Below are positions 10,815 to 26,937 of a stretch of DNA of 64,000 nucleotides, one piece after another. The translations under genes and the position numbers were made by a program. The notes beneath the pieces are model-generated. The model was not told the DNA's origin. It ran no database searches and was given only the letters and a program-made list of their open reading frames with translations. Positions within the stretch are counted from its first letter, which is position 1. Each line of letters opens with the position of its first letter. The stretch covers positions 1 through 64,000 of the forward strand of contig JAAXXT010000004.1 of the NCBI GenBank assembly GCA_013334325.1. Reading direction: 5' to 3'. The stretch comes from Erysipelotrichaceae bacterium (GTDB lineage Bacteria; Bacillota_I; Bacilli_A; Erysipelotrichales; Erysipelotrichaceae).

Positions 10815-10838
10815 TAATGAGATCTAAAAAATAATGAA

Positions 10839-12638
10839 TTAATTGTTTTGTAAGATTCTCCAAAGCGTTGTTCGACTGATGCCTAGTTGTTTGGCTGTGA
10901 TGCTCTGATTACCATTATTATCTTTTAATGCTTGGGAAATGATTTCCTTTTCAATATCAGCTAATGTTCCTTTTAAGGGGATGCTAGGGGAGACGATAGT
11001 ATTGATGTGACTCTCGACTTTTTCTAAGCTTAAACCATTTCGAACATCTGCTTCTCTTATCACATTATCCTTAGCGGTGATGATGAGTTGAGATAGTATT
11101 CTTTCAAATTGAACGTAGTTATTAGGCCAAGGATACTCAACAAGAATATTCATCGCATTACGATCAAATCTTAGGATATCTTTACCGAATCTAGCATTCT
11201 GATGACTTAGGTATAAATTAGCGATCGCAGGGATTTGTTCTTTGTTTTCTCTAATGGGTCTAAGTTCTATCTCTATACATTGGAATTTATCTTTAATGTA
11301 TGAAATGAATATAGGATCTGAAACACGAGTACGATCATAAGAAAAAATAACCTTATTGTTTTTACATACACCTAGATGATTGATGGTTGATAATAGCTCT
11401 TTCATAAACAACTCAGGATTAGCTTCCATATTTTTAAAATGGACCATATGATTTGAGATGAATAGAGGGGATCTATGATTGTTGAGTAAGAATTCTTTTG
11501 ATTTGGTATTCAAAAGGTCACAATCGATCTCTATAAATGAATGATCATTTTTTTCACTGTTGATGTAAATGTAATTAGCCAGTTCTGTTTTTCCTGTCCC
11601 ATACTCACCTTGAATAATGATGGGGACATTCGTTTTATTGATATCTCTGATGTTGTTTCTGTTTTGATCGATATTGCCGGTGAGATGATAAAAACCATCC
11701 AGGAATTCTTTTTCTAGTTCTTTCATCGAATAAAAACTAACCCCCGAATTACGATTGATCTTGGCTGCTTTACTCTTGGTGAAGAAGAAAGCAACAAGCG
11801 AGTTATTGTAAGTTTCTATGATGTTCGATTTTATGGAATATAGGTAACCATCGATGGATTTGACATAATGTCTTACGCCTTGATCTTTTACTTCGTCGAT
11901 CATTTCTTCGAGTATAGAGAATATCTTTTCATTATCAGAAACAGTGATGGAACTGAAATATAAGGTCCTATCTTTCCCATACAGGACAGTTTCTTCGGTG
12001 TGTTCATCAAGAAGAGTTCTCAGTAATAAATTATCATTTCTTAATAGTTCTCTAGAGTTGATGTCTCTAACTGCATTTGTAATCGCAATATTGATGGATT
12101 CAGCGCTGGAAGTGATCAAAATGGTCAATAAACCAGCTGCTTTGGCTACATTGCCTGAGATAACGTCACATAGTATGATTTTGTAGTTCTCTTTTTCAAG
12201 CTGTTTCATGATGGGATAAACATCATTCTCTTCAATCAAGGTAAATATATCTATATCTATCTGAAGAATATCGCACAATGTTTTAGCATGATCGGTGATG
12301 CTTGAGAACCCAACAATGGCTTTCTTCCCATCCAAATCTTCAGATAAACGAATGGCTTTTAACAAATCTGTGTTGAGCAAAGGGATTTCTATGACAGGAA
12401 TTTCAACACATTCACGCAAGGCATCAGCGGTTCCACCTCTAGAAATGATCGCATCATAATTCGCATGAAAATTCGATTGAACGAGTTTTACTCCTTCTTG
12501 AAGATTCCCTACGACGACTTTGATTTCTACATTCTTATAAGATTTAGCTTCTTTCTCGATTAAGGTCTTCATACCATCGTAGGGAGCAACTCCTAGAATC
12601 TTAATTTTTTTATTTAGATCATAACTGTTGTGTTTCAT
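10839..12638 (-). CDS. PrpR_N/AAA/Fis-type regulator lacking the sigma-54 contact motif
   Basis: About 599 residues from the ATG at 12638; the frame is open 20 codons further, and no start has a good ribosome site. The N-terminal ~190 residues fit PrpR_N, a ligand-binding domain (ILGVAPYDGM; AIISRGGTADALREC). A central AAA domain has an intact Walker A (QGEYGTGKTELA), but no GAFTGA loop and no recognisable Walker B. The C-terminus is a Fis-type HTH (ITAKQLGISRTTLWRIL). It is divergent from the sugar-acid operon and probably controls it in response to a pathway acid. Loss of GAFTGA implies it works with sigma-A, like TyrR. Confidence 0.88.
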   Translation of the reverse strand: MKHNSYDLNKKIKILGVAPYDGMKTLIEKEAKSYKNVEIKVVVGNLQEGVKLVQSNFHANYDAIISRGGTADALRECVEIPVIEIPLLNTDLLKAIRLSEDLDGKKAIVGFSSITDHAKTLCDILQIDIDIFTLIEENDVYPIMKQLEKENYKIILCDVISGNVAKAAGLLTILITSSAESINIAITNAVRDINSRELLRNDNLLLRTLLDEHTEETVLYGKDRTLYFSSITVSDNEKIFSILEEMIDEVKDQGVRHYVKSIDGYLYSIKSNIIETYNNSLVAFFFTKSKAAKINRNSGVSFYSMKELEKEFLDGFYHLTGNIDQNRNNIRDINKTNVPIIIQGEYGTGKTELANYIYINSEKNDHSFIEIDCDLLNTKSKEFLLNNHRSPLFISNHMVHFKNMEANPELFMKELLSTINHLGVCKNNKVIFSYDRTRVSDPIFISYIKDKFQCIEIELRPIRENKEQIPAIANLYLSHQNARFGKDILRFDRNAMNILVEYPWPNNYVQFERILSQLIITAKDNVIREADVRNGLSLEKVESHINTIVSPSIPLKGTLADIEKEIISQALKDNNGNQSITAKQLGISRTTLWRILQNN

Positions 12639-12715
12639 AAATGAACAATATCTCATTTGAGTAAAAAAATCAAGAGAAAATGTTTCAAATCTGCACATAT
12701 ATCAAATTTATAGAA

Positions 12716-12744
12716 TTGTGAAAAAGCGCAATATGATTTAATCT
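12716..12744 (+). promoter_or_regulatory. putative sigma-A promoter of the sugar-acid operon
   Basis: TTGTGA (12716-12721) and TAATCT (12739-12744) are spaced 17 bp, with the ATG of the kinase gene 22 bp further on. No -24/-12 sigma-54 element (TGGC...TTGC) is seen anywhere in the divergent gap, in line with the altered regulator. Confidence 0.45.
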
Positions 12745-12766
12745 GTATGTGTAAGAAGGTTCAAAC

Positions 12767-13981
12767 ATGCTTAAACTACTCATTTTAGCTGACGATCTCA
12801 CAGGCGCACTTGATTCAGGGGTGCAATTAACCAATAAAGGCTATACCGTGCAAGTTTGTACTGACTTCAACGATGCTTTTGAATATACAGATTTATATGA
12901 TGTTTTGGTTATTGATACAGAATCTAGACATATCTCATCAGAATCAGCCTATGATTTGATCCATTTCTTAGCTAAAAAGGCCATTAACTTAGGATTTGAA
13001 CATATCTATAAGAAAACAGACTCTGGATTAAGAGGAAATGTTGGATCTGAATTATCGGCACTAAGAGATGCTACTAAACAGAAGGTTCTTAACTTTGTAC
13101 CAGCTTATCCAAAACTTAATCGTATTACTAAGAATGGTATTCATTATGTAAATGGGGTTCCGTTGGCTGAAAGTGTATTCGCCAATGATGTACTTGATCC
13201 AGTCACAGTATCCTCTGTTGAGGAACTTATTCATCTACAGTCTGATGTAAAAGTATCTAAGAATGAGACAGATGGGATTATCGTTCATGATTGTGAAAGT
13301 GATCCTGAAATGAATCTGATTGCGAAAAAGATATTCAATGAAGGTAAGTATCCTATTTCAGCGGGTTGTGCTGGGCTCTTAGAAGCTTTCCCTATCAATC
13401 CAAATAAACAAGACAATAAAGATTCTGTATGTCTAAACGAAAATCTTATCGTTATCACAGGATCTATGAATGAAGTGAGTTTGAATCAGATCGATCATGC
13501 TGAGAAGAAAGGGGCTACTCGTCATCATGCTCCAATGAATCTCATTGTTAATGAGAAGTGGAGCGAAAGCGACATAGATGTTTATACAGAAGCTTTGGTT
13601 AGAGATATCACGCCATCAACGACGATCATTCTAGATACTCAGCAATCATTTGAAATTGAACAGCCTATTTCAAGTGATCAGATAGGCAAGATTATTGCCA
13701 AGTGTATGGGCTTATTGGTATATAAGATGATTCTAAAATTTCCTGATTATACTTTCATGATTATCGGTGGAGATACCCTTCATGGGTTTATGCAAGAATT
13801 AGGAATACATTCACTATCTCCAGTTAAGGAAATCGTACCTGGTGTCGTTTTGGCAAAATATGTATACAAAGAAAAAGAACATTATCTTGTAACTAAGAGT
13901 GGTGCATTTGGATCTGATAACCTTATTGCACAAGTTGAAAGCTTCATTAAAAAAGAAAGCAGGAAAAGCATATGTCACTAG
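12767..13981 (+). CDS. four-carbon acid sugar kinase family protein (DUF1537, DtnK-like)
   Basis: A 404-residue kinase. The N-terminal domain begins LLILADDLTGALDSGVQL with the ADDLTGA motif. It continues with YKKTDSGLRGNVGSEL (KTDSTLRG motif, substrate and ATP site). The C-terminal domain has FMIIGGDTLHGF (GGDTA motif) and the PGVVLAKY...KSGAFGS end. Characterised members (DtnK, OtnK, DenK) phosphorylate D-threonate, 3-oxo-tetronates or D-erythronate at O4. Together with the PdxA2-like gene three places downstream this points to threonate/erythronate-type catabolism. The exact sugar acid is inferred. It overlaps the next gene by 10 bases. Confidence 0.88.
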   Translation: MLKLLILADDLTGALDSGVQLTNKGYTVQVCTDFNDAFEYTDLYDVLVIDTESRHISSESAYDLIHFLAKKAINLGFEHIYKKTDSGLRGNVGSELSALRDATKQKVLNFVPAYPKLNRITKNGIHYVNGVPLAESVFANDVLDPVTVSSVEELIHLQSDVKVSKNETDGIIVHDCESDPEMNLIAKKIFNEGKYPISAGCAGLLEAFPINPNKQDNKDSVCLNENLIVITGSMNEVSLNQIDHAEKKGATRHHAPMNLIVNEKWSESDIDVYTEALVRDITPSTTIILDTQQSFEIEQPISSDQIGKIIAKCMGLLVYKMILKFPDYTFMIIGGDTLHGFMQELGIHSLSPVKEIVPGVVLAKYVYKEKEHYLVTKSGAFGSDNLIAQVESFIKKESRKSICH

Positions 13982-15138
13982 AAAACTACAGCATTAAAAT
14001 GCCGAAAGCTGTATATAACGGAACGAATTCTCTTAATAGAATTCCGGAAATTATTACGGCGATTCAAGCTAAGAAGATTGCTGCTTTTACAGATAAAGGA
14101 ATAAGAAGCTTAGGTTTATTTGATCTGATAGAAAAGCAAATCAAAGCAGCAGGCGTAGAGTATGTAATTTATGATAATCTCCCAGCTGAACCTACTTATG
14201 GTCAAGTTCAAACGGTTATTGATGAGTTTAAAGGAAGTGGTTGTGATTTGATCATTGCTTGTGGTGGAGGATCCGTTATGGACGCCGCTAAATTGGCAAG
14301 CATCTTAGTTACCGATGAATATGGAGTAAAAGAACTACTGGATGATCCAAAACGAGGGAAGAAATGTATCCCTGTCATTATGATTCCTACAACGGCAGGA
14401 ACAGGGGCAGAATGTACCCCAAATGCAATCGTAGGCGTTCCTGAGAAAGAACTAAAGATCGGTATCGTCAATGATAACCTGATCGCAGATTACGTTATCC
14501 TAGACGCTGAATTGATCAAGAACCTACCAAGGAAATTGGCAGCAGCAACTGGGATAGATGCCTTATGTCACGCCATTGAATGTTACACCTCAAATAAATC
14601 AAACCCGTTCTCTGATACCTTCGCATTAGAAGCATTCGATCTTATCATGAACAATATCGTAAGCGCTTGTGATGATAAAACAGCGATGCTTGAGAAGAAT
14701 AAAATGCAGATTGCTGCCTTCTATGGTGGTGTAGCGATTACATCCTCTGGAACAACAGCTGTACACGCCTTAAGTTATCCATTAGGAGGTAAATATCATA
14801 TCGCTCATGGAGTTTCCAATGCGATGTTATTGATTCCTGTGATGAGATTTAATGAACCAGTATGTAGAGAGAAATTCGCTGCTGCATGGGACAGAGCATA
14901 TCACGGAGAATTGAGATTAATTACCGTTGAAGAAAAGTCTAAAGCATTGATCGATTGGATGGATAAGATCGTAAAACATCTTGAAATTCCAACGAGTTTA
15001 AAAGAATTCGGAGTGGATCCTAAAGATCTAGATACATTGGTTGAAGCTGGTATGGGTGTTACCCGTTTATTGGTAAACAATATGAGAACCGTGACTGCTG
15101 CAGATGCAAGAGCGATATATCAGGAGGTACTAAACTAA
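13972..15138 (+). CDS. iron-containing alcohol dehydrogenase
   Basis: A 388-residue group III (Fe-dependent) dehydrogenase. It shows the NAD motif CGGGSVMDAAK at about residue 97 and IPTTAGTGAE at about 140. The metal ligands are Asp and His in GIDALCHAIE (about 198-206) and two His in AVHALSYPLGG and YHIAHG (about 263-282). Such enzymes reduce small aldehydes, for example glycolaldehyde, lactaldehyde or succinate semialdehyde. Set between a sugar-acid kinase and a DapA-family lyase, it could remove the aldehyde released by the lyase (inference). It overlaps both neighbours. Confidence 0.9.
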   Translation: MSLENYSIKMPKAVYNGTNSLNRIPEIITAIQAKKIAAFTDKGIRSLGLFDLIEKQIKAAGVEYVIYDNLPAEPTYGQVQTVIDEFKGSGCDLIIACGGGSVMDAAKLASILVTDEYGVKELLDDPKRGKKCIPVIMIPTTAGTGAECTPNAIVGVPEKELKIGIVNDNLIADYVILDAELIKNLPRKLAAATGIDALCHAIECYTSNKSNPFSDTFALEAFDLIMNNIVSACDDKTAMLEKNKMQIAAFYGGVAITSSGTTAVHALSYPLGGKYHIAHGVSNAMLLIPVMRFNEPVCREKFAAAWDRAYHGELRLITVEEKSKALIDWMDKIVKHLEIPTSLKEFGVDPKDLDTLVEAGMGVTRLLVNNMRTVTAADARAIYQEVLN

Positions 15139-16034
15139 TGGTTGATATCAAAGGCATTATCGTTGCGATCTGTACTCCATTGAATAGTGATGAATCCTTG
15201 AATCTTAATGAATTAAGAAATCAGATTGAACGACAAATTGAAAGTGGTATAGATGGGATATTTACGACCGGAACAAATGGTGAAGGTTATATCCTAAACG
15301 GATCAGAAAAGCGTCAAATCTTAGCGACAGCGATCGATCAAGTCAAAGGAAGAGTTCCTGTCTATGCGGGTACTGGTTGTATCTCAACGAAAGAAACAAT
15401 CGAGCAATCCTTGGTTGCGAAAGAGTTAGGCGCAGATGTCATCAGTATCATTACACCATCCTTTGCGACAGCGAGCCAAGAAGAATTGTATATTCATTTC
15501 AAGACCGTCGCAGAAGCAGTTGATCTACCTATACTTCTCTACAATATCCCTGCTCGTACAGGCAATACACTAGAACCTGAAACCGTTAGTCGTTTAGCAC
15601 AAATAAAGAACATCGTTGGGATCAAAGATTCCAGTGGTAAGTGGGATAGCTTAAAAGCTTATCTCGAGATCATAAAAGAACGTCCTGACTTTGTCGTATT
15701 ATCAGGCAATGATAGTTTGATCCTTGATGCGTTGATTGAAGGTGGTAAAGGTGGTATTGCTGGTTGTGCTAATGTCTATCCTGCACTTCTCTCATCCATC
15801 TATGATCTGTATATAGAAGGAAAGATCGATGAGGCAAGAGTTGCTCAAAACAGTATTGCCTCATTCAGAGCTGTATTCAAATATGGTAATTCAAATACCA
15901 TTGTCAAAAAAGCAGTTGAGCTACTAGGTTATCCTGTAGGACCATGCAGAGCACCGTTTAATGGTTTAAGTGAAGAAGGTCTAGTAGCTTTAAAAGCTGT
16001 CCTTGAAGAAAACAAACTAAAAGGGCTGCGCTAA
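15138..16034 (+). CDS. DapA-family (class I) aldolase/dehydratase
   Basis: A 298-residue TIM-barrel lyase. Motifs: GTNGEGYILNGSEK (about 43-56), the tyrosine in LLYNIPARTGN (about 135-145), and the Schiff-base lysine in VGIKDSSGKWD (about 162-172). The family includes dihydrodipicolinate synthase, N-acetylneuraminate lyase and 2-keto-3-deoxy-sugar-acid aldolases. The location in a sugar-acid operon favours a 2-keto-3-deoxy acid aldolase over lysine synthesis. The TAATG overlap with the preceding gene shows coupling. Substrate not determinable by eye. Confidence 0.87.
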   Translation: MVDIKGIIVAICTPLNSDESLNLNELRNQIERQIESGIDGIFTTGTNGEGYILNGSEKRQILATAIDQVKGRVPVYAGTGCISTKETIEQSLVAKELGADVISIITPSFATASQEELYIHFKTVAEAVDLPILLYNIPARTGNTLEPETVSRLAQIKNIVGIKDSSGKWDSLKAYLEIIKERPDFVVLSGNDSLILDALIEGGKGGIAGCANVYPALLSSIYDLYIEGKIDEARVAQNSIASFRAVFKYGNSNTIVKKAVELLGYPVGPCRAPFNGLSEEGLVALKAVLEENKLKGLR

Positions 16035-16035
16035 T

Positions 16036-17088
16036 ATGAAAGATCTTAAACCTATTATTGGGATCAGTATGGGAGATCCTGCTGGTAATGGTCCTGAGAT
16101 TACAGTAAAAGCCTTATGTGATAAAAGTGTCTATGATCGATGCAAACCTCTAGTTGTAGGGGACGCTAAAATGATCGAGCAGGCTAAAAAGTTTGTTCAT
16201 CAGACTCAGATCAAAATTAACCCTGTTCATTCAGTATCAGATGCTAAATTCGAATATGGAACCATCGACGTATATCAACTTGATCTAATCAAAGATGTTG
16301 ATTCCTTCAAGATCGGTGAAATTAGTGTTGAAGGTGGAATGGCTGCCTTTGAATCCGTTAGAAAAGTGATTGAGCTTGCCTTGAATAAAGAAGTGGATGC
16401 GACGGTAACGAATGCTCTAAATAAAGAGGCTATGAATCTAGCTCTAGAGCCTAAAGGTATGCATTTTGATGGTCATACCGAGATATACGCCACCTATACC
16501 AACACAAAGAAGTATTCGATGATGCTTGCTCATAATGACTTCAGAGTTGTCCATGTAAGTACGCATTGTTCCTTAGTTGAGGCATGTAGAAGAGTTAAAA
16601 AAGATCGAGTCCTAGAAGTCATCAACCTTGCTTATCAAGCAATGAAAGACCTAGGAATCAATGAACCAAAAATAGCAGTGGCAGGATTGAATCCACATGC
16701 TGGTGAGAATGGACTATTTGGAAGAGAAGAAATCGATGAGATCATCCCAGCGATCAATGCTGCGAAAGAAAAAGGTATTAACGCTATAGGACCACTTCCT
16801 GCTGACAGTATCTTTTCGAAGATGTTGGGCGGTTGGTACGACATCGTAGTTTGTATGTATCACGATCAGGGTCATATCCCTGTTAAGACTTTAGGTTTTG
16901 TCTATGATCGTGAAAAGCAGAGATGGAAAGCAGTAGAAGGTGTGAATATCACGTTGGGATTACCGATCATCCGTACATCAGTTGATCACGGAACCGGATT
17001 TGAAAATGCAGGTAATGGAACAAGCAATGAACTAAGCCTTGTTAATGCAATTGATTATGCTATTCGAATGGCCAAAGGTCAAAAATAA
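16036..17088 (+). CDS. PdxA2-like 4-phosphate dehydrogenase (4-hydroxythreonine-4-P dehydrogenase family)
   Basis: A 350-residue PdxA-family oxidoreductase with ISMGDPAGNGPEI at the start, the FDGHTEIYA metal-ligand histidine region, GLNPHAGENGLFGREE, and MYHDQGHIPVKTLGF near the C-terminus. PdxA proper makes vitamin B6. PdxA2 proteins that neighbour DUF1537 kinases oxidise and decarboxylate D-threonate-4-P or D-erythronate-4-P to dihydroxyacetone phosphate and CO2. No other B6 gene is nearby, so the catabolic role is favoured. It is the fourth gene of the operon and starts right after the lyase stop. Confidence 0.87.
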   Translation: MKDLKPIIGISMGDPAGNGPEITVKALCDKSVYDRCKPLVVGDAKMIEQAKKFVHQTQIKINPVHSVSDAKFEYGTIDVYQLDLIKDVDSFKIGEISVEGGMAAFESVRKVIELALNKEVDATVTNALNKEAMNLALEPKGMHFDGHTEIYATYTNTKKYSMMLAHNDFRVVHVSTHCSLVEACRRVKKDRVLEVINLAYQAMKDLGINEPKIAVAGLNPHAGENGLFGREEIDEIIPAINAAKEKGINAIGPLPADSIFSKMLGGWYDIVVCMYHDQGHIPVKTLGFVYDREKQRWKAVEGVNITLGLPIIRTSVDHGTGFENAGNGTSNELSLVNAIDYAIRMAKGQK

Positions 17089-17219
17089 TCAAGGAGTTAA
17101 GTTCGAGAAAGGAGATCAATTAAGTAGAAGATAATAAAAAATGATGTAGGTTTATTGAAACTTTATCGTATAGATTTAACTAAAAAAGAGTCAAAACATG
17201 ACTTAAAAGGAGAAGGATT

Positions 17220-18497
17220 ATGACTTTATCAATGATTATCACACTAGCGATTATCATTCTAATGGTTGTTGTTATCATAAGTGACAAGCTTCCATTTGGT
17301 GCTCCTGCACTAATCGCAGCAGCATTGTTGGTTATTACAAATCAGGCTAACGTTGCGACAGCTTTTGGGGGATTTGTCGATAAGAACGTTATTATGATCA
17401 TGGGCTTCCTTGTATTGATGGTTGGACTAGACAAAACTGAAATGATCTATAAGACCAAAAAGGCTTTAGCCAAATTCGCTACCACAGGCGGAGTTAAAGG
17501 CTTAATTCTTTTGATGCTTGCCATTATGGTTGTAGGTAACTTTGTTACTGGTACTGCATTTTATGTATTAGTATTGGGCATTGTTTCAACAATTCCTAAT
17601 AATAAGAAACTTCCTACTTCTAGAATTATCTTGCCTGCTGCTATCGCAACAACAGCGAGCGGTTGGTTACCAACTGGTGTCGTCTTCTTTGCATCACTCG
17701 CTGGAGGCTTACTTAAAACTGCTGGCATTACTGCCACTATTGATCCTATAAAGATCGTTTATATTAACGTTATATTCTCAGTTTTATATTTAGCTTGGGT
17801 ATTAGTTGGACATAAACTGTTACCAGCTAATAATACAAACGATGCTTCGGAAGCTGAAGTTAAAGAAGAAAAGCCGTTTGTTGCAACGTTAACTAAGACA
17901 CAACAAAATGTAGTTTATGTTGGTTATCTTACTGTTTTAGTTTCAATGCTCTTCTTATCCAAATTCCCTGGTGAAGTTGGTTACTCAATTCCGTTAGTTA
18001 TTGCTTCTGTATTCTTGATTTTTAAAGCTATTACCTTTAAAGAATTGCTGTCTAATATGTTCTCCCCGTTAACAATCATGATGGCTTCAGTCATTGGGGT
18101 TGCTGCAACGATGAGTAATACAGGACTATCAGCTTATATCGGTGGCCAGGTTGCTGGCTTATTGGGAGCTGCTCCTAGCTTAATGTTAGTTGTATTTGTC
18201 TTCGCTTTCTTGACCAGTATCTTTGCGACATTCACAGGCGCCAGCTTTGGTTCCTTGTTTGTTACAGCTCCTATTGGGATCGCATTATGTGTACAATACG
18301 GATATAGTGCAGTTCCTCTGGCTGTTGCTTGTATCTTGGCGGCTTGGGTCAACTATATTATGCCGATCGATGGAATGCCTGCTCTTGCGTTTGGAATGGG
18401 CAAATACAAATTGATCAACTTCTGGGCATTCGTTATTCCTGCTTGGATCATCAGAATAGTTGTTATCTGTGTAGCTTGTGTTGTCTTCTTTGCTTAA
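17220..18497 (+). CDS. SLC13/DASS-like membrane permease, probable organic acid importer
   Basis: A 425-residue integral membrane protein with about 11-12 segments and no soluble domain. The AFGGFVDKNVIMIMGFLVLMVGL region and the repeated small-residue hairpins (TGTAFYVLVLG; FTGASFGSLFVTAPIG) fit the ion-transporter superfamily of dicarboxylate and citrate carriers. An AAAAGGAGAAGG site precedes the ATG. It follows the sugar-acid enzymes by 131 bp with no terminator between, and a strong hairpin follows it, so it probably brings in the acid the operon degrades (inference). Confidence 0.75.
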   Translation: MTLSMIITLAIIILMVVVIISDKLPFGAPALIAAALLVITNQANVATAFGGFVDKNVIMIMGFLVLMVGLDKTEMIYKTKKALAKFATTGGVKGLILLMLAIMVVGNFVTGTAFYVLVLGIVSTIPNNKKLPTSRIILPAAIATTASGWLPTGVVFFASLAGGLLKTAGITATIDPIKIVYINVIFSVLYLAWVLVGHKLLPANNTNDASEAEVKEEKPFVATLTKTQQNVVYVGYLTVLVSMLFLSKFPGEVGYSIPLVIASVFLIFKAITFKELLSNMFSPLTIMMASVIGVAATMSNTGLSAYIGGQVAGLLGAAPSLMLVVFVFAFLTSIFATFTGASFGSLFVTAPIGIALCVQYGYSAVPLAVACILAAWVNYIMPIDGMPALAFGMGKYKLINFWAFVIPAWIIRIVVICVACVVFFA

Positions 18498-18522
18498 TTA
18501 AGTAATTTAGTAAAAATATGCT

Positions 18523-18545
18523 GGGGGCTTCTTTAAGCCCCCTAG
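18523..18545 (+). terminator. GC-rich hairpin after the permease gene
   Basis: GGGGGCTT-CTTT-AAGCCCCC is a perfect 8-bp stem with a 4-nt loop, followed by TAGCGTTTATTT. The T-run is imperfect, so it may be a partial terminator or an mRNA-stabilising element separating the permease from the esterase cluster. It ends 20 bp before the next start codon. Confidence 0.65.
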
Positions 18546-18564
18546 CGTTTATTTGGAGGACTAC

Positions 18565-20178
18565 ATGTCAGAACGTTTCTATTCTTATGTTTCAACTAAA
18601 TGTGGTGCAGACTGTGTTCAAACGATTTTCTTATGTGCACCTGAGAAATATGCGATCAATGAAGAGAAAGCTAGAGAGTTTGCTGTGCTTTCTGGTTGGA
18701 TTGATCAAGTAGAAAAGAATGCGGCATTACTGATCATGTTGATAGTACCTAATGGATGGAATGATTTCTCAAGTGACGCATTATTGATTTTTTATAACAA
18801 GTATAAAAATGAGTTTAAATCACCTACAGGAATCAGTATTCCTGGAAGAGATGGAATTATCTGGTTATGGGAAACCATGATCTATGCGGTAGGATATGAT
18901 GAAGGTGCAGATTATCTAGGAAACGTATTGGTTAAACATTCGAATTTCTTCGCAGGGGCTGCATTGATCAATGGTGGAGCGAGTGATTTCTCTCCTATGA
19001 ATGAGAAAACTGACCATTGGTTTGTAGCTCAACCAACGAGTGATTACTGTGTTCTTAATAAGGAAGTTCCTGTCCCAGTTTGGTTGTTTGGGTATACTAA
19101 AAATACAGAGGCAAGCTCAAGATATTTCTCTGAAATCAATCATACGGATCACATACTTACCGATACCATTAATAGTATTGATGTTGAGATCCATTACAAT
19201 TTAAAAGAACCAGCACAACAGGTTCGTACTTCATTTGAAAACTCTAGAGTTGATCTAGTTATTGCTAAGACAATAATGAATGAACTCTTTAATAAAAGTA
19301 TACGTTGGAAAAATAGTCCTGATGGAACCATAAAACGCTACTTAGGTAGAAATGAGTATCTTACTTCACAACGATTCAAACACTACAGTGTAAAGTGTGG
19401 AAACTTCGATTATCCCTATTCAGTACATATTCCAAACGGATTGAATATTGATGATATAAAAGGATATCCTTTGGTTATAAGTCTACATGGTCGAGGAGAA
19501 CCGACTTGGGTCTTCGCTGAGAAGAATGGATGGGATAAGTTGGCAGATGAAACAAAAGAATTCATCGTTGTCTTTCCGGATTCAAAATTTAACATTTGGC
19601 AAATTGAAAGAGATTATGACGCACTAGAAACCATTCTGAATGATCTAAAGAAGACCTATGAATATGAGCCTGAACGTGTTTATCTAACTGGTTTCTCTAA
19701 TGGAGCCATATATACCTGTCAACAAGCTTCTACTCATCCTTGGTTATTTGCGGCTGCTTCTCCTTGGAATGGACCTGATATGGAAACATGTAAGAAGGGC
19801 AATATAGCCTCTTATGTCTATCATCCTGATTTCATCGATTCTGATTATGAGTTACCTTTCTTTATCATCGTTGGAGACAATGATTCAAAAGCTATCGCTG
19901 ATCGGCATGATGAACTAGAAATAGTCCTTCCTATCAATGGATGCTCATTTCTAAATGAAGAAGAATTGAAGAATTATTATACAAATGAGAACAAATTTGA
20001 AGAAGGTCATCGATTTAAAACAAGACTTTATCTTAATAAGAATCTAAGTCCTAGAGTAGGACTTACTGTCATGAAAAATATGCCTCACGGTGCTATTTTT
20101 GATGAAAGTAGAGCAGCATGGAATTTTATGAAACGATTCCGTAGACCAAATAGAAATAAACATATTGAGGAGGTATAA
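18565..20178 (+). CDS. two-domain alpha/beta-hydrolase (esterase D/PHB-depolymerase-like), paralogue 1
   Basis: A 537-residue protein from the ATG at 18565 (TTTGGAGGACT ahead; the in-frame TTG at 18553 lies in that site). The C-terminal half, from about residue 285, is a catalytic alpha/beta-hydrolase: oxyanion LVISLHGRGEP, nucleophile Ser in LTGFSNGAIY, acid Asp in IIVGDNDSKA, His in NMPHGAIFDE. The N-terminal half looks like a second, degenerate hydrolase fold without GxSxG. No signal peptide, so cytoplasmic. It is the most divergent of three tandem paralogues. Substrate unknown; ester cleavage is inferred from the motifs. Confidence 0.8.
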   Translation: MSERFYSYVSTKCGADCVQTIFLCAPEKYAINEEKAREFAVLSGWIDQVEKNAALLIMLIVPNGWNDFSSDALLIFYNKYKNEFKSPTGISIPGRDGIIWLWETMIYAVGYDEGADYLGNVLVKHSNFFAGAALINGGASDFSPMNEKTDHWFVAQPTSDYCVLNKEVPVPVWLFGYTKNTEASSRYFSEINHTDHILTDTINSIDVEIHYNLKEPAQQVRTSFENSRVDLVIAKTIMNELFNKSIRWKNSPDGTIKRYLGRNEYLTSQRFKHYSVKCGNFDYPYSVHIPNGLNIDDIKGYPLVISLHGRGEPTWVFAEKNGWDKLADETKEFIVVFPDSKFNIWQIERDYDALETILNDLKKTYEYEPERVYLTGFSNGAIYTCQQASTHPWLFAAASPWNGPDMETCKKGNIASYVYHPDFIDSDYELPFFIIVGDNDSKAIADRHDELEIVLPINGCSFLNEEELKNYYTNENKFEEGHRFKTRLYLNKNLSPRVGLTVMKNMPHGAIFDESRAAWNFMKRFRRPNRNKHIEEV

Positions 20179-20182
20179 CAAT

Positions 20183-21970
20183 ATGAAAGACACAATGAAT
20201 GAATTGATTCAGTTCTCTCCATTTGGAGGTCAGTTGATCCTTGAAGAGGTTAAAGGTAATACATCAGGAAAGCTCAATCCAGAAAACAATATTGTTACTG
20301 TGATTGGTGTTGATCGTAGTATGGTTGCCTATATCCCTAAGAGTGGATGTCCTCACGCAAAACAGACCCAAGTTCTTATGGTATTACGTGATAGTAACAC
20401 CCTTGAAAGTGCTGAAAAGCTTATGAAGGAATTAGAACTTGATCAATTGGCTGATGCAAATCACTTTATATTGTTGTTTCCTAATCCTACTGATGATGGA
20501 TGGAATTATCAAGAAGATGTAAACAAAGATAATGATATCCAATATCTTGCCCGTTGTTTTGCTGCATTAACAAAATCAAAAGGAAGAGTTTCAGGTTTTA
20601 ATGGATTGATTTTCTATATTGGAACTACTCCAAATTCCTCCGCAATGGTTACAACCTTAGCGATCAAATCTCCATTGGATGCTGCAGCGATTATGGTTAC
20701 AGAATTCCCTAAAACTTATCAGTTACCTACAGGAAAATCAGCACAGCAAGTTGCATGGATCTGTGGTAAAAATGTTCAACTAGAAGCTTATTTAGCGATA
20801 GTCAATAAAGCAAATAATATTAGCCAAGATGGTGATGTTACGGTCCATGTGAATTCTCAAAATGAATGTGTTAAACATTTCGTATCAAAAGAAGGAATAT
20901 CTGCCAAAACTGTTGAGAACGCTTGGGATAAAATGTTTTCTGAAACAAGACGTTGGCGTAATGATACATTTGGGACTTATCAACCAAGAATAGACTTTGC
21001 TTCCAAAGGTTTCACTAAACATTATGAGGATGATTCTTTAGGTACCAATAGGGGATTTAAGCATACTTGGTATGAATATGTTCCTGAACAATTAAGAGGA
21101 ACAAATAAGAAAGTACCCCTTGTTCTATATTTCCATGGGATCAATTGTGTTGGTCTATATGGAGCTGAGCAAAGTGGATTAGCGAGTATCGCTGATAAAG
21201 AAGGATTTGTCGTTGTATTCCCAGATCCAGCCATTGAAGAAAGATGGAATATCTGGGATGATCCTCGTTTACCAAGTGATGTGGAGTATATCATGGCTTT
21301 GATCAAACATATGAAGAAGGTTCATCCAATTGATGAATCCAGAATCTATATCGCAGGATTCTCTATGGGATCAATGTTTACCAATGCCTTGGCATGTTCA
21401 TATCCTGAAATATTTGCTGCAGCTTGTGCCTTTAATGGACCTCATACAGGTTATTTATCGACACTAGACTTTTCCAAAAAAGGTATGGCTCAATTTAGAC
21501 CAAATACTGTAATCAACGACTTACCAGTATGGGATAAAGCAACATCCCAAATCCATGATTTAGCGGATGAAAAGAAATCACTGTATGATTATCGACTACC
21601 TTTTGTTCAATTTGTTGGATTATTGGATGGGGTAGGTTTTGACCCTGATAGAATATGGCCAGTAAATGGACCTAATGATGGAACTTGGCCACTAGGAATT
21701 GCTTATTGGAAGAAATTCAATAATATTCAACAGGAAAACATTTTTAGTACCGAGTATATCTCAGGTATTGCTTCCCCAGTATGCATAAAAGAAGGCGAAA
21801 GATTTATTCATCAGGTATGGAATTCAGCCGATGAGAATCTGGATACACTTTATCATTTGATAAGTGTTGAATGTATGCCTCACGCAGTCGATTTGAAAGG
21901 TTTTGAAATAGGTTGGAATATCATAAAGCATTATTCTCGAAATAATGATGGATCACTTACAAAAAGATAA
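20183..21970 (+). CDS. two-domain alpha/beta-hydrolase (esterase-like), paralogue 2
   Basis: About 595 residues from the ATG at 20183, which follows GAGGAGGT. It starts with QFSPFGGQLILEEV, a sequence shared with the next gene. The C-terminal half carries VLYFHGINCVG (oxyanion loop), Ser in IAGFSMGSMFT, Asp in FVGLLDGVGFD and His in CMPHAVDLKG. The N-terminal ~240 residues hold the segment VLMVLRDSNTLESAEKLM and a pseudo-elbow TTPNSSAM where a nucleophile would sit. No signal peptide. About half identical by eye to paralogue 3, showing a recent duplication. Confidence 0.8.
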   Translation: MKDTMNELIQFSPFGGQLILEEVKGNTSGKLNPENNIVTVIGVDRSMVAYIPKSGCPHAKQTQVLMVLRDSNTLESAEKLMKELELDQLADANHFILLFPNPTDDGWNYQEDVNKDNDIQYLARCFAALTKSKGRVSGFNGLIFYIGTTPNSSAMVTTLAIKSPLDAAAIMVTEFPKTYQLPTGKSAQQVAWICGKNVQLEAYLAIVNKANNISQDGDVTVHVNSQNECVKHFVSKEGISAKTVENAWDKMFSETRRWRNDTFGTYQPRIDFASKGFTKHYEDDSLGTNRGFKHTWYEYVPEQLRGTNKKVPLVLYFHGINCVGLYGAEQSGLASIADKEGFVVVFPDPAIEERWNIWDDPRLPSDVEYIMALIKHMKKVHPIDESRIYIAGFSMGSMFTNALACSYPEIFAAACAFNGPHTGYLSTLDFSKKGMAQFRPNTVINDLPVWDKATSQIHDLADEKKSLYDYRLPFVQFVGLLDGVGFDPDRIWPVNGPNDGTWPLGIAYWKKFNNIQQENIFSTEYISGIASPVCIKEGERFIHQVWNSADENLDTLYHLISVECMPHAVDLKGFEIGWNIIKHYSRNNDGSLTKR

Positions 21971-21979
21971 GGAGAAACT

Positions 21980-23749
21980 ATGAACGACAGAATGAACGAA
22001 GTAACTGTATTTTCACCTTTTGGTGGTCAATTGATCCTTGAAGAAGTGCTTGGATCAAACAATGAATTTAAGATCCCCGAAAACTCTATATCAACTAAAA
22101 AAGGATCTGATAGAAGCATGTTTTCATATGTTCCTGTATCGGGTTGTTATGACGCCAAACAAGAACAAGTGTTAATGGTTCTTCGTGATGAAACTAATGA
22201 AGTGAGTGCTGAGAAATTGATGAAGGAGTTGAAGTTGGACGAATTGGCAGAAGAGAAACATCTGATTCTACTTTTCCCTAACCCTAGCAATCAAGGATGG
22301 AATTATCAAGGTGATGCTCTAAGAGAAGATGATTTATCTTTCTTAGTTCGTTGTTTTGCGGCACTACCAAAATCAAAAGGAAAAGCTTCTGGATTCAATG
22401 GGATGATTTTCTACATTGCAACTTCGAATAGTTCTAGCGCCTTATTATCTTTACTGTCTGAAAAACAACCAATTGATTGTTCAGCGATGATGCTTGGTGC
22501 TTATCCAAAGGACTATCATATTGCGCAAGGTGGGTTAAGACAATCAGTTAATGCTTGGGTCTATGAAGAAAACAAAGAACTCCAAGAATATCTTATTGAA
22601 GTGAATCATATCGGGTCAAAGAGCGTAAGCGATGGCTTAAGTAAATATACTTCAAAACTCAATGAGAATAATATGCATTTTGTATCGAGCACAGGATTAA
22701 ACGCTAATGAAATAAAGAATGCTTGGGAATTATTGTTTTCTGAAACTAGACGTTGGAGAAATGATACCTATGGTACTTATCAGAAGCGTACTAATTTTAC
22801 CGAATGGGGTTTTGTAGGGCATGTAAACGATGATTATTTAACTGTAAACAATGGTTTTAAACATACTTGGTATGAGTATGTGCCTGAACAATTACGAGGC
22901 ACAGAAGAAAAAGTACCACTTGTGTTTTACTTCCATGGTGGAGCTTGTGTTCCACTTTATGGTGCAGAACAAAGTGATTGGCATGAGATCGCTAAAAAAG
23001 AGAACTTCATCGTTGTATACCCAAAAGCCTCTATTGGGAAGATGTGGAATGCCTTCGATGATCTAAATCAACCTAGTGATTTCGCTTTTGTCTTAGCTTT
23101 GATTGAGCACATGAAAAAAGTTCATCCGATTGATGAAACAAGAATTTATTTATCGGGTTTCTCAATGGGATCCATGATGTCAAATGCTATGGCATGTGCC
23201 TATCCACAACTTTTTGCAGCGACTGCACCTTTGAATGCTCAACATCTAGGATATTTATCCAATCGAGCTAAGTTAATGTCATCTCCTGCGTTAGGTAATA
23301 AACCAACAGATGATCTATTGAATGAGATTAGTCACACGAAGATCTTGGCAGATGAAGCTAAAAAGAGAATGGATTATCGTATGCCTGTATTTCAATGTAG
23401 TGGTTTATTGGATGATTTGTTTAATACTTGGCCAATAGACAAAGAAGAAAATCTTTGGATACCAACCTTTAATTATTGGAAAGCATATAATCATATTCCA
23501 GTAACTAAATTTGAATACAATAGTAAATATGAAACAGGTTTATACTCTGACGAAACTCGTTATGTCTGTGTTGATGAACGATTCATACATCATACGTGGT
23601 ATACCAGTGATACTCATTTGCCTTTGTATCAATTCTTGGTTGCGAAGAGAATGCCTCATGCTGTAGATCTAAGAGAAATTAGATTGGCCTGGCAATTTAT
23701 GAAGCACTATTCAAGATATTCAGATGGTACACTAGAGTATAAAGAGTAA
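21980..23749 (+). CDS. two-domain alpha/beta-hydrolase (esterase-like), paralogue 3
   Basis: A 589-residue protein, close to paralogue 2 along its whole length (VFSPFGGQLILEEV start; ETRRWRNDTYGTYQ linker; FKHTWYEYVPEQLRGT). Catalytic residues: Ser in LSGFSMGSMMSN, Asp in CSGLLDDLFNT, His in RMPHAVDLREI. The oxyanion region is FYFHGGACVPLYG. The ribosome site AAGGAGAAA starts two bases before the preceding gene's end region, so the genes are co-transcribed. Cytoplasmic by lack of a signal sequence. The linker motif WRND.YGTYQ is conserved between the two and may mark a domain boundary. Confidence 0.8.
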   Translation: MNDRMNEVTVFSPFGGQLILEEVLGSNNEFKIPENSISTKKGSDRSMFSYVPVSGCYDAKQEQVLMVLRDETNEVSAEKLMKELKLDELAEEKHLILLFPNPSNQGWNYQGDALREDDLSFLVRCFAALPKSKGKASGFNGMIFYIATSNSSSALLSLLSEKQPIDCSAMMLGAYPKDYHIAQGGLRQSVNAWVYEENKELQEYLIEVNHIGSKSVSDGLSKYTSKLNENNMHFVSSTGLNANEIKNAWELLFSETRRWRNDTYGTYQKRTNFTEWGFVGHVNDDYLTVNNGFKHTWYEYVPEQLRGTEEKVPLVFYFHGGACVPLYGAEQSDWHEIAKKENFIVVYPKASIGKMWNAFDDLNQPSDFAFVLALIEHMKKVHPIDETRIYLSGFSMGSMMSNAMACAYPQLFAATAPLNAQHLGYLSNRAKLMSSPALGNKPTDDLLNEISHTKILADEAKKRMDYRMPVFQCSGLLDDLFNTWPIDKEENLWIPTFNYWKAYNHIPVTKFEYNSKYETGLYSDETRYVCVDERFIHHTWYTSDTHLPLYQFLVAKRMPHAVDLREIRLAWQFMKHYSRYSDGTLEYKE

Positions 23750-23753
23750 GTGT

Positions 23754-24206
23754 ATGATCATAGGCCAAATTACACATATTAATGAATATGCTTCACTTGT
23801 TCCTAATTTAGAGAAAGGTTTAGACGCCATTAAGAATTCAGAGTCCTTGGTTGTTGGTAAATATACATTTGATGGAGGTTATTATTTGATTCAAGAAGGC
23901 ATCACCAAGTCGTTTAAAGAGGGCACTTTTGAAGCTCATAGAAACTATATTGATGTCCAGATCATCGTCAAAGGTTCTGAAGAGATCGCATGGTTTGATT
24001 ATGATCAATTGAAGAGTATCGTTCCTTATGATGAGTTAACTGATAAAGAGAGATTGATAGGGCCAACATCGCACACTGTGTTGATCAAAGAAGGTATGTT
24101 TTGGATCGCATTTCCAAGTGATGGGCATCTCGCAGTCTCTCATACAAATAAACCGTATAGTTACCGAAAAATCGTACTTAAATTACCGATAAATACAGGA
24201 GGTTAA
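23754..24206 (+). CDS. YhcH/YjgK/YiaL family cupin-like protein
   Basis: A 150-residue single-domain protein with the family pattern EAHRNYIDVQIIVKGSEEIAWFDY (about residues 61-84) and a late FPSDGHLAV, giving the metal-binding His/Glu set of this beta-barrel family (TIGR00022). Members sit in sugar-acid and sialic-acid operons; E. coli YhcH acts on sialic acid forms, and others are proposed sugar mutarotases. It begins 4 bp after the third hydrolase, and the BNR gene starts 3 bp after it. A role in converting a sugar tautomer or anomer is inferred. Confidence 0.87.
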   Translation: MIIGQITHINEYASLVPNLEKGLDAIKNSESLVVGKYTFDGGYYLIQEGITKSFKEGTFEAHRNYIDVQIIVKGSEEIAWFDYDQLKSIVPYDELTDKERLIGPTSHTVLIKEGMFWIAFPSDGHLAVSHTNKPYSYRKIVLKLPINTGG

Positions 24207-24209
24207 GAA

Positions 24210-25370
24210 ATGAGTATAAAAAGATTACCAGGATTAACACTTGATGGACAAGTCTATTTCAATGAAGAAATGAGTATTATAGAGGCAGCACTTCCTCCTG
24301 GACCTTGGAAAACAGCTCATGCTCCTGCTTTACTAGAAACAAAAGCAGGAACATTATTATGTACTTGGTTCGCTGGCACTTTTGAAGGTGGAACAGACAT
24401 CAATGTTGTTGTTTCTCGACTACCTAAAGGATCTGATCGATGGGAAGAACCACAATACATTACAAACGATGATGATTTTTCTAATCAAAACCCTTCATTG
24501 TTTTTAGCTCCCAATGGTGAGATCTGGGCTCTATATACAGCTCAACTTGGTCGTATTCCGGGAAAAGACAATATGCAGTATACATCAATCATTAAGAAAC
24601 AAGTCAGTATCGATGATGGAAAAACTTGGTCTAAGCCTGAAGTTATTTTTCCTGAAGAAGGTACTTTCGCTCGTCAACCTATTCAAATCTTGTCGAATGG
24701 TCGATGGATCATAGGCAATTGGATCTGTACAGATGGAGAAAAAGGATTAGCTGGAGATCCTAGTGCATTTAGAATCTCTGATGATCAAGGGAATAGTTGG
24801 AGAAGGGTTGATATGCCAAGATCCAATGGACGTGTACATCCTAATGTCGTTGAACTAGATGATGGTCATCTTATCGCCTTAATGCGTTCACGTGAAGCGG
24901 ATTATATCTATATAAGTGAATCATATAATTATGGGGATACATGGAGTGAACCAGTTCCTACTGTTTTACCAAACAACAATTCTAGTATCAGTGCATTGAA
25001 GCTAAAGAGTGGTAGATTGGCAGTTGCCTATAATCATTCAAGTGCACCGACTACATATACTAAAAAAGGTGCTTGGCCTGGTTTAAGATGCCCTGTCACT
25101 ATTGCGTTGAGTGAAGATGGTGGAAAGACATTCCCATTTATTCGACACATCGAAAGAGGTGAAGGTTACTCAGGTGATCTAAACCGTTCAAACAATAAAC
25201 AATATGAGTATCCATATTTAATGCAATCTACTGATGGAATGCTTCATCTTGCCTATGCCTATAAAACAAGAATTGGTGTTAAATGGGTTACGTTAAGAGA
25301 AGAAGATGTTATTGGAACACATTTAGGAATTGGTACTTATAATCCTACTTCTGGCGAGATCAGTAAGTAA
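24210..25370 (+). CDS. BNR-repeat (sialidase-fold) protein, possible exo-glycosidase
   Basis: A 386-residue beta-propeller with several Asp-box-like turns: SIDDGKTWSKPEV, SDDQGNSWRRV, NYGDTWSEPV and SEDGGKTFPF. The start HAPALLETKAGTLLCTWFAGTFEGG is typical of the BNR_2 'sialidase-like' family. No signal peptide, so it acts inside the cell, unlike true secreted sialidases. With the YhcH and DapA-like genes it recalls a sialic-acid cluster, but nanE, nanK, nagA and nagB are missing. It more likely cleaves another acidic glycoside or works as a lyase on one (inference). Confidence 0.82.
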   Translation: MSIKRLPGLTLDGQVYFNEEMSIIEAALPPGPWKTAHAPALLETKAGTLLCTWFAGTFEGGTDINVVVSRLPKGSDRWEEPQYITNDDDFSNQNPSLFLAPNGEIWALYTAQLGRIPGKDNMQYTSIIKKQVSIDDGKTWSKPEVIFPEEGTFARQPIQILSNGRWIIGNWICTDGEKGLAGDPSAFRISDDQGNSWRRVDMPRSNGRVHPNVVELDDGHLIALMRSREADYIYISESYNYGDTWSEPVPTVLPNNNSSISALKLKSGRLAVAYNHSSAPTTYTKKGAWPGLRCPVTIALSEDGGKTFPFIRHIERGEGYSGDLNRSNNKQYEYPYLMQSTDGMLHLAYAYKTRIGVKWVTLREEDVIGTHLGIGTYNPTSGEISK

Positions 25371-25458
25371 GTCTATCTAGTTTGCCTATCCTATAACATA
25401 AGATGTCACATGCTAAGTAAGCAATGACTCTTTTGATTATGCTTATTAGATCATGTTT

Positions 25459-25480
25459 AGTTTGAAATACCGATCAAACT
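25459..25480. promoter_or_regulatory. inverted repeat upstream of the MFS gene
   Basis: AGTTTGA and TCAAACT are perfect inverted arms with an 8-nt spacer, ending 17 bp before the start codon of the MFS gene. It could be an operator or a small leader hairpin; nothing tells which. Confidence 0.35.
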
Positions 25481-25497
25481 GACACTTTGGAGAAGAT

Positions 25498-26688
25498 ATG
25501 AATCAAAACGAAACGATATTTAATCGCAGTTTCAGTCTTATGCTATTTACAGGTTTTCTTCTTTTCTTATCGATCACTATGGTTTCTCCTATTATGGCCA
25601 GTTACGCTATTTCGTTGAATGTTACTGGTGGTTTAGTAGGTTTTTTAGCGGGCCTTTTTTCGATGTCATCGTTGATCATTCGTCCAATTTGTGGAAAAGC
25701 GGTGGATCTAAAGAACAAGAAAAAAATACTAATGGGTTCATATTTTGTGGTCTTTTTGGCGATGCTTGGCTATGCATTCAGTGTATCCATCCAAATGCTT
25801 TTCTTCTTTAGAATCCTACATGGATTGGCTTGGGGTTTTGCGTCTACAACGAGTATGACCGTTGCGATCGATTCGCTACCGCATAAAAGAATTGCTTCAG
25901 GTATTGGTTTCTATGCGATGATGCAAACAACTGCTACAGCGATAGCTCCTATGGTGGGTTTATATATTGCAGGGCATTATGGGTATAGAGCAACTTACTT
26001 AACTGGAGCTATGATGGCCTTATTAGGATTGATGATGACGCCTTTTGTTTTAACCACACCTCCTAAGAATAGTCATTTATCCTTATTGAGATCTGTAAAA
26101 TTTAGTGAACTAATAGAAAAGAAAGCGATGCTTCCTGCTTTATTGACTTGTTGTAATGCGATGACTGGTGCTGCTATAGGAACCTTCTTAGCTCTGTATG
26201 CAAAGAAGTTAGGTATCGAAGGCATTGGTCTATATTTCACTGTGAATGCGATCGCTATGTTAGCATCTAGACCTCTATTGGGATATATGACAGAGCGTTT
26301 TGGATTAATGAAAATCATACTTCCATGTGAGGGTTTAATGGCGCTTTCCGTTATTGGTTTGGCTTTTTCAACTTCCTTAACTTCAATTCTTATCGTGGCC
26401 ATTGTAATGGGGATCGGTTCTTCAGGAGCATCACCTGCATTGATTGCAGCGTGCATCAACTCTACAACCAAAGATAAGCGAGGAGTCGCAACGTCTACGA
26501 ATTATGTTGGTTTAGATAGTGGTCTCTTCTTAGGTGCCTTTATTGCGGGTCTATTAGTCAATTGGGTAGGTTATTTTGGAGCCTTTGCCTTCTTTTCGAT
26601 ACCTATCCTTGTGACTTCAACGATATATGCTTTCTCAAAGAATGGAAATACTAAAATACAGACCTTAACTGAAACAGATTTGGTTTGA
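25498..26688 (+). CDS. MFS transporter
   Basis: A 396-residue, 12-segment major facilitator. The loop 2-3 signature is RPICGKAVDLKNKKKIL (about residues 62-78), an RxxxGxxxDxxxxKK type. A second RPLLGYMTERFG motif in the second half shows the internal duplication. An ACTTTGGAGAAG site precedes the ATG. It lies 127 bp after the BNR gene, on the same strand, without a clear terminator between, so it may serve the catabolic locus, but an independent efflux role is equally possible. Confidence 0.87.
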   Translation: MNQNETIFNRSFSLMLFTGFLLFLSITMVSPIMASYAISLNVTGGLVGFLAGLFSMSSLIIRPICGKAVDLKNKKKILMGSYFVVFLAMLGYAFSVSIQMLFFFRILHGLAWGFASTTSMTVAIDSLPHKRIASGIGFYAMMQTTATAIAPMVGLYIAGHYGYRATYLTGAMMALLGLMMTPFVLTTPPKNSHLSLLRSVKFSELIEKKAMLPALLTCCNAMTGAAIGTFLALYAKKLGIEGIGLYFTVNAIAMLASRPLLGYMTERFGLMKIILPCEGLMALSVIGLAFSTSLTSILIVAIVMGIGSSGASPALIAACINSTTKDKRGVATSTNYVGLDSGLFLGAFIAGLLVNWVGYFGAFAFFSIPILVTSTIYAFSKNGNTKIQTLTETDLV

Positions 26689-26937
26689 AAATATTAAAGG
26701 TTTTGATGAACTCATATATTTCCTTAGATTAGATTCATACAAATTATATTCACATCATATCAACTACGCCACTCTTGAATGATTGGCCTTTTAATGCATC
26801 TGTACTGTACAATATGTATGCATTTATTAACAATAACTAGTTCTTTTAATGAATAAACTGAAAACATGAACTATAAATAGCCATGTTTAAAATGATATGG
26901 CTAATGATCACTTGACTACGTAAAAGAAGGAAACTCG

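Follow-up and report, generated by a model that had tools for sequence, protein, structure and literature searches.

A widespread five-gene set predicted to convert the plant cell wall sugar acid Dha into pyruvate and, through D-threonate, dihydroxyacetone phosphate

A block of acid-sugar catabolic genes was studied in a 64,000-nucleotide stretch of DNA (the window) from an Erysipelotrichaceae bacterium (assembly GCA_013334325.1, contig JAAXXT010000004.1, positions 1 to 64,000). The open reading frames were listed and compared with Pfam and NCBIfam profiles, and from position 12767 onward the catabolic genes, on the + strand, were found to overlap or to be spaced by 1-131 bases. The first encodes a DUF1537 kinase (12767..13981; SBD_N 145 bits, NBD_C 65 bits), predicted to be a D-threonate kinase, and is followed by an iron-containing alcohol dehydrogenase (Fe-ADH; 13972..15138; Fe-ADH 154 bits, ADH_Fe_C 151 bits), predicted to reduce a C4 aldehyde acid to D-threonate, an aldolase of the DapA superfamily (15138..16034; DHDPS 257 bits), and PdxA2 (16036..17088; PdxA 338 bits), predicted to act as a D-threonate-4-phosphate dehydrogenase that yields dihydroxyacetone phosphate (DHAP) and CO2. 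The aldolase is the predicted lyase for 3-deoxy-D-lyxo-hept-2-ulosaric acid (Dha), giving pyruvate and the C4 aldehyde acid. A CitMHS/DASS-like permease (17220..18497; CitMHS 69.8 bits), the predicted importer of a dicarboxylic sugar or small conjugate, precedes three alpha/beta hydrolases (Est1, Est2 and Est3), a protein of the YhcH/YiaL family (23754..24206; DUF386 101 bits; TIGR00022 74.9 over 45.5), predicted to be an ulosonic acid anomerase, and a BNR_2 protein of sialidase fold (24210..25370; BNR_2 209.9 bits), the predicted Dha-releasing glycosidase. The profile searches placed every gene named in an earlier sequence-only reading of this DNA where that reading had put it, packed on one strand; position 12638, from which it had begun the block, is the likely start codon of a divergent regulator gene.

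A collection of 84,980 species was scanned with a pair of paralogous hydrolases, and two related loci were found. In an Erysipelotrichaceae metagenome-assembled genome (MAG) from goat (L063) the block has the identical order, minus YhcH, and in a Solobacterium MAG from cattle (L062), whose contig begins within PdxA2, the permease, the three hydrolases, YhcH and the BNR protein are retained. A plasmid of Subdoligranulum variabile (L064) carries the same families in a different order, with two hydrolases. Because the block recurs in L063 and L064, and in L062 where the contig end truncates it, its arrangement as an operon goes beyond chance. The proposal of the sequence-only reading that it forms one catabolic unit for an acid sugar is supported. 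Two further gene groups were seen in these relatives. Between the permease and the first hydrolase, L062:1941-6705 encodes a flavoprotein resembling FrdA/NadB, two divergent members of the DapA family, another YhcH and, judged by eye, an MBL-fold protein, and is a second, related acid-sugar module. About 5 kb downstream of the BNR gene, L063:17863-21234 holds, by eye, genes for L-rhamnose isomerase, rhamnulose aldolase and rhamnulokinase.

A plasmid collection was also searched with the window BNR protein, and 307 records matched at E 1e-20, among them Rhizobium (128), Sinorhizobium (78), Pantoea (27) and Agrobacterium (17). Eighteen of these records, taken as the best matches plus an even spread, were opened and their genes mapped by tblastn; they are a non-random sample in which many rhizobial records are near-copies, in such a way that the counts are of records and not of events. 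A core made of BNR, DapA, Fe-ADH, DUF1537 and PdxA2 was complete in 13 of the 18 neighbourhoods, mostly from plant-associated Proteobacteria: Enterococcus (L073), Roseomonas (L075, kinase in two pieces), Rhizobium (L076, L077, L078, L089), Paracoccus (L080), Klebsiella (L083, several genes in pieces), Agrobacterium (L086), Sinorhizobium (L088, L091, L092) and Pararhizobium (L090), the kinase lying at the extreme end of the opened stretch in L088 and L090. The core is complete also in L063 and L064. Streptomyces (L081) showed BNR with a distant DapA, and the two weakest BNR matches, Bacteroides (L079) and Pandoraea (L093), had none of the four other core genes nearby. Three additional loci were chosen through DapA, and all five genes were present in Caballeronia (L085) and Cupriavidus (L087), and four, without BNR, in Niallia (L084). 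In Caballeronia sp. SBC2 the kinase and PdxA are fused in one 768-residue protein (L085:10078-12381), which is a direct link between the two steps.

The hydrolases were found in none of the 21 neighbourhoods opened via BNR or DapA, so the role as a core part that the sequence-only reading had given to the esterases did not hold. The importer varies across loci (CitMHS, SSS symporter, peptide-type ABC), CitMHS being found in L062-L064 and L073, and the regulator family varies too, while the five enzymes are constant; this is as expected if the five enzymes make up one pathway. The kinase/PdxA2 half and BNR stand together in most of the opened relatives, and the constant separation that the earlier reading had named as grounds for giving up its proposal was not seen. 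Another explanation is that the locus serves the plain use of D-threonate or D-erythronate, with acyl-threonates (plant or diet esters) as substrates and with DapA and Fe-ADH acting on unrelated side products. It would account for the three esterases here, and PdxA2 is described in organic acid catabolism in the available part of PMC9997740; however, DapA, Fe-ADH and BNR are retained with kinase/PdxA2 across phyla and the esterases are not, which makes this explanation quite improbable.

The best models for the window aldolase were DHDPS and 'HpaI-NOT-DapA', with TIGR00674 at 228.3 over a cut-off of 206.15. Both models concern C7 diacids, the DHDPS product being a C7 keto-hydroxy diacid. This aldolase is the sole PF00701 gene found in the host genome (G000; 1.95 Mb, 98.8% complete), and DapB_C (PF05173) had no match there in a search that was positive in 11 of 14 control genomes; a role as DHDPS in lysine metabolism is therefore unlikely and was rejected. 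In an alignment to DHDPS, Lys163 and Tyr135, which we take to correspond to the Schiff-base lysine and the tyrosine of DHDPS, are kept in all 16 cluster aldolases. Asn47, Phe109 and a basic residue at 140 (10 Arg, 2 Lys) are found in 12 of the 16, the basic residue occupying the DHDPS Arg position and Phe109 replacing a DHDPS Tyr. The second Tyr of the DHDPS PYYN motif, presumably catalytic in that enzyme, aligns to S108-F109 in the window enzyme and is not kept.

Regarding the other enzymes, the kinase lies close to PdxA in the window, as expected of the D-threonate pathway, and it is the single DUF1537 gene of the host genome. The kinase of the Klebsiella cluster scores 507.8 bits with the curated D-threonate kinase model, above its cut-off of 450, and PdxA2 from Klebsiella and Pantoea reach 667.3 and 668.2 with the D-threonate-4-phosphate dehydrogenase model (cut-off 583). 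No NCBIfam equivalog passed for Fe-ADH.

An AlphaFold model of the BNR protein was built from three sequences, with modest confidence (mean pLDDT 65.7). Sialidases came first in the Foldseek search (6mnj, 1eur; E 6e-15), and the 50 rows listed by VIA had Z values of 29.6-31.6 and spanned 309-331 residues, so that the modelled protein plainly adopts the sialidase beta-propeller fold. The Dha hydrolase reported for Bacteroides thetaiotaomicron (BT1020) was not among the Foldseek and VIA rows listed; no weight is given to this, and no link to that enzyme is claimed. All 15 of the 15 homologues compared keep residues H37, E59, D63, R155, H210, R226, R228, R293 and Y334. By eye, D63 was placed at the acid of sialidases, R226 and R293 at two of their three carboxylate-binding Arg, and Y334 at the nucleophile. 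We infer that the window protein would be a hydrolase of the ketosidic Dha bond. No signal peptide was seen by eye on it, on YhcH or on the hydrolases. A related domain was found on a plasmid record of Bacteroides finegoldii, where a BNR_2 domain (283 bits) lies C-terminal to a GH78 rhamnosidase (L079:754-6092), in a fusion that adjoins an apiosidase and is near GH28 and GH78 genes, an RG-II (rhamnogalacturonan-II)-type locus. According to the available part of PMC12282258, chain C of RG-II terminates with rhamnose on Kdo, and the fusion fits an enzyme for this rhamnose-Kdo chain.

The sialidase fold together with YhcH indicates a 2-keto-3-deoxy ulosonic acid as substrate. With a lyase of the NanA superfamily in the same block, a pathway for a sialic-acid-like sugar (Neu5Ac, Kdn or Kdo) would be a natural thought, but the window aldolase failed the cut-offs of both N-acetylneuraminate lyase (NanA) models (154.3 against 382 and 177.1 against 281), and on these grounds that pathway was rejected as very unlikely. 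YhcH scored 61 with the N-acetylneuraminate anomerase model, under its cut-off of 160. The lyase products of Neu5Ac, Kdn and Kdo are, by textbook chemistry, neutral or amino sugars and give no C4 acid, and no NanK or NanE was among the genes identified at the locus.

A different acid gives each of these enzymes a place. To our knowledge, Dha occurs in plants only in RG-II, and we know of no other plant sugar with its C7 2-keto-3-deoxy diacid skeleton. The name 3-deoxy-D-lyxo-hept-2-ulosaric acid is that of PMC12168206, and the available part of PMC12282258 places Dha in chain D of RG-II, linked beta-2,3 to the backbone and capped by beta-1,5-arabinofuranose. Judging from the gene sequences, the locus is probably an operon through which Dha, or a small conjugate of it, is broken down. 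Dha, or the conjugate, would be imported by the CitMHS permease; in this lineage the three hydrolases might strip acyl groups or open lactones, the weakest step of the scheme; the BNR protein would release Dha from its linked partner, and YhcH would accelerate ring opening or anomer exchange. The aldolase would then cut the C3-C4 bond to give pyruvate and a C4 aldehyde acid (tetruronate), which Fe-ADH would reduce with NADH to D-threonate, in such a way that the DUF1537 kinase could phosphorylate it and PdxA2, with NAD+, could oxidise and decarboxylate the product to DHAP and CO2. The net conversion would be Dha to pyruvate, DHAP and CO2 at the cost of one ATP, redox neutral as the NADH spent by Fe-ADH would be regained by PdxA2. 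The analysis shows the gene content, the conservation of the core, the fold of the modelled BNR protein and a stereochemical fit on paper; the reactions themselves, with their substrates and directions, are all predictions. Three parts of the sequence-only reading are kept in this scheme, namely DHAP formation by DUF1537 and PdxA2, a step on a 2-keto-3-deoxy acid and a sialidase-fold protein, and we think that its suggestion of pectin-type oligomers as test substrates was near the mark.

The scheme was compared with the one put forward by that reading, in which an acylated acidic glycoside is imported, loses its ester groups and is then split, the kinase and PdxA2 serving a C4-acid branch and DapA and Fe-ADH another branch for a 2-keto-3-deoxy acid/aldehyde. 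The window, L063 and L064 do indeed each hold the esterases, BNR and the two enzyme pairs in one place. However, the two pairs are also together in loci free of esterases, and in Niallia even without BNR, and two branches would demand a composite substrate in every locus, whereas one C7 acid accounts for both pairs. As this acid gives each of the four enzymes one step, a single line, with the aldolase product reduced to the C4 acid, is more economical, and we consider the parallel branches unlikely.

The stereochemistry on paper agrees with the Dha route. Following the Fischer formula, C6 and C5 of D-lyxo Dha correspond to C2 and C3 of the C4 acid, which is then D-threonate and not an erythronate or L-threonate; the D-ribo and D-arabino isomers would yield L-erythronate. 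The fit is shared by the D-xylo epimer, which would also yield D-threonate because the cleavage erases the stereochemistry at C4. The substrate might then be a C7 acid other than Dha, either this C4 epimer or another 3-deoxy-heptulosarate of plant or microbial origin following the same route, and plant or plant-eating hosts are no proof of RG-II. We see this as improbable, given that Dha is the only such plant sugar we know and that a BNR homologue stands in the RG-II-type Bacteroides locus.

Besides the D-xylo ambiguity, several results weigh against the assignment to Dha. The best NCBIfam model for the window kinase is D-threonate kinase, at 185.7 bits under a cut-off of 450, and the window PdxA2 scores 297.1 bits with NF002891 (D-threonate-4-phosphate dehydrogenase), under a cut-off of 583, being outscored there by two generic PdxA models. 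The position of the first sialidase Arg was read by eye as His (H37) in the BNR protein, which makes its activity uncertain, and the Bacteroides BNR domain, a weak match at 28%, is seemingly part of an enzyme for chain C (Kdo) rather than for Dha. Four of the 16 aldolases, all alphaproteobacterial (L075, L076, L077 and L080), carry Thr47 and Tyr109 with no basic residue at 140, and at 27-31% identity to the window enzyme they belong to another subfamily. From their sequences, the gene set has apparently drawn its aldolase from two DapA subfamilies. Arguments built on one motif lose force and the case becomes less simple, though both subfamilies can carry out the same reaction. Two Pantoea loci (L074 and L082) have four of the five core genes and no intact kinase nearby: in Pantoea ananatis PA13 a 58-bit kinase remnant (L074:7970-8430) adjoins an intact PdxA2, so the kinase may have been lost or one encoded elsewhere may be used, and L082 gave no kinase match. 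Finally, GH28, which acts on the pectin backbone, had no match in the host genome in a search positive in 4 of 14 control genomes; pectin could not be opened through that family and the bacterium would depend on released sugar.

The role of the hydrolases is the least certain step and also counts on this side. Est1 (18565..20178, +; NCBIfam PHB-depolymerase-like 85.5 bits, below cut-off) was listed from TTG 18553 and probably starts at ATG 18565; Est2 (20165..21970, +; Esterase_PHB 37.9 bits) has its likely start at ATG 20183; Est3 lies at 21980..23749 (+; Esterase_PHB 28.6 bits). The NCBIfam models for polyhydroxybutyrate (PHB) enzymes stayed under cut-off on the hydrolases, which bear an N-terminal extra region, followed in Est3 by a CE1/PHB-depolymerase-like C-terminal domain. 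With a model of Est3 (pLDDT 78.7) the best Foldseek match was the PHB esterase 9byu, and then acetyl xylan and feruloyl esterases. The oxyanion HG, GFSxG, Asp and MPH elements are kept in 9 of 9 hydrolases, with the triad at S395, D478 and H560. Est2 and Est3 are 52% identical, and each of the three has its own best counterpart in L062/L063, with 51-61% identity, compared with 22-49% for the remaining two. Present in the window and in the three gut Firmicute loci (L062, L063, L064), the hydrolases are an add-on to the core. Because they are absent from the wider core, our guess is that they could be a front end peculiar to this lineage, acting on esterified or lactonised forms.

Upstream and divergent lies a gene for a regulator with PrpR_N, AAA+ and Fis helix-turn-helix domains (10839..12638, - strand; Pfam PrpR_N 154 bits, Sigma54_activat partial, HTH_8; listed open reading frame to 12698). 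It is likely the pathway regulator, and a homologue divergent to the kinase was found also in L063, L064 and L073. Its AAA+ domain is sigma-54-interaction-like and apparently degenerate, and sigma-54 (PF04552) had no match in the host genome in a search positive in 4 of 14 control genomes; the regulator probably works without sigma-54, and a sigma-54 promoter was rejected for a genome lacking this factor. No palindrome common to the regulator-kinase intergenic regions of the window, L063, L064 and L073 was found, and no operator is claimed. Scans gave 33 promoter-like sites against 53.6 in shuffles and 9 terminator-like sites against 7.4, and neither was used as evidence. Between the permease and Est1 genes there is a GC-rich hairpin (18523..18542, +) with 8 perfect pairs (GGGGGCTT/AAGCCCCC); no clear T run was seen for it on the + strand, so it is not a clear terminator, and it could adjust how much of the second half of the transcript is made relative to the first. 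An MFS gene (25498..26688, +) begins 127 bases after the BNR_2 gene; no MFS match was found in L062, L063 or L064, and it is at most a candidate member of the operon.

The distribution of the locus is patchy and it may have been acquired, since the six same-genus genomes listed in the order have no DUF1537 gene (PF07005), which is present in 54 of 294 genomes of that order. With BNR only the window's own genome matched across 392 genomes of the phylum (E 1e-30), and with DapA there were six matches across 395 genomes of the class (E 1e-75), one of them in the window's own genome; in the other five loci, of 3.8-3.9 kb, only DapA matched among the queries. Elsewhere in the window, a glycine betaine-type ABC transporter (OpuAC binding protein, ATPase and two permeases) occupies 3138-6906, and one protein at 40836-42773 shows an odd pairing of DUF5305 with an MshEN domain.

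RG-II is a conserved component of primary walls in plants. If the prediction is true, a main natural source of D-threonate for DUF1537/PdxA2 would be named, a large group of 'exo-alpha-sialidase' proteins in rhizobia and Pantoea would gain a function, and five vaguely or misleadingly named families (exo-alpha-sialidase, DapA, PdxA, four-carbon acid sugar kinase and Fe-ADH) would share one testable job, which would also account for the presence of a D-threonate route in gut Firmicutes and in bacteria that live with plants. As a prediction it is sharp, naming a single sugar, a single aldolase product and a single stereoisomer. A catabolic pathway for Dha was not found in the literature searched, most subscription papers and all preprints lying outside that search, and the papers covered name RG-II side chains and some polymer-cutting enzymes, and not the intracellular fate of Dha. 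On balance we lean towards seeing here the first recognised intracellular Dha pathway, a widespread five-enzyme module that would convert 3-deoxy-heptulosaric acid into pyruvate and, via D-threonate, DHAP.

We compared the predicted pathway with known systems, and the gene mix is, as the sequence-only reading had said, unlike the known threonate/erythronate and sialate routes. The RG-II degradation locus of Bacteroides thetaiotaomicron was reportedly described by Ndeh et al. in 2017; the likeness to Bacteroides RG-II loci is the joining of BNR_2 and GH78 next to an apiosidase on the B. finegoldii plasmid, whereas the polymer is broken down there and the window genome, without GH28, would have just the intracellular end that is predicted here. 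Sialate catabolism (NanA lyase, YhcH anomerase, sialidase) shares a glycosidase of sialidase fold, an anomerase and the logic of a pyruvate lyase, but the window lyase is nearest to DHDPS and its predicted product is a C4 aldehyde acid passed to a reductase, kinase and PdxA2, with no NanK/NanE seen. The 'aldolase-DUF1537' pathway for L-threonate and D-erythronate, formed by LtnD, OtnI, OtnK and OtnC in the available parts of PMC12540250 and PMC10580937, likewise takes a C4 sugar acid to DHAP with a DUF1537 kinase; in contrast, the window uses PdxA2, and LtnD, OtnI and OtnC are absent among the genes of 9567-27810. Closest is the D-threonate route through a DUF1537 kinase (DtnK) and PdxA2 (Zhang et al. 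2016, as cited in the available parts of PMC9997740, PMC12540250 and PMC10580937), with which the window shares the kinase and PdxA2 families and, by prediction, the two final steps that yield DHAP and CO2; unlike it, the window adds upstream an aldolase, a reductase, a protein of sialidase fold, YhcH and hydrolases, through which a C7 sugar would be turned into D-threonate. The known part would be these last DUF1537/PdxA2 steps, and upstream of them a sialate-like front end would feed the D-threonate back end.

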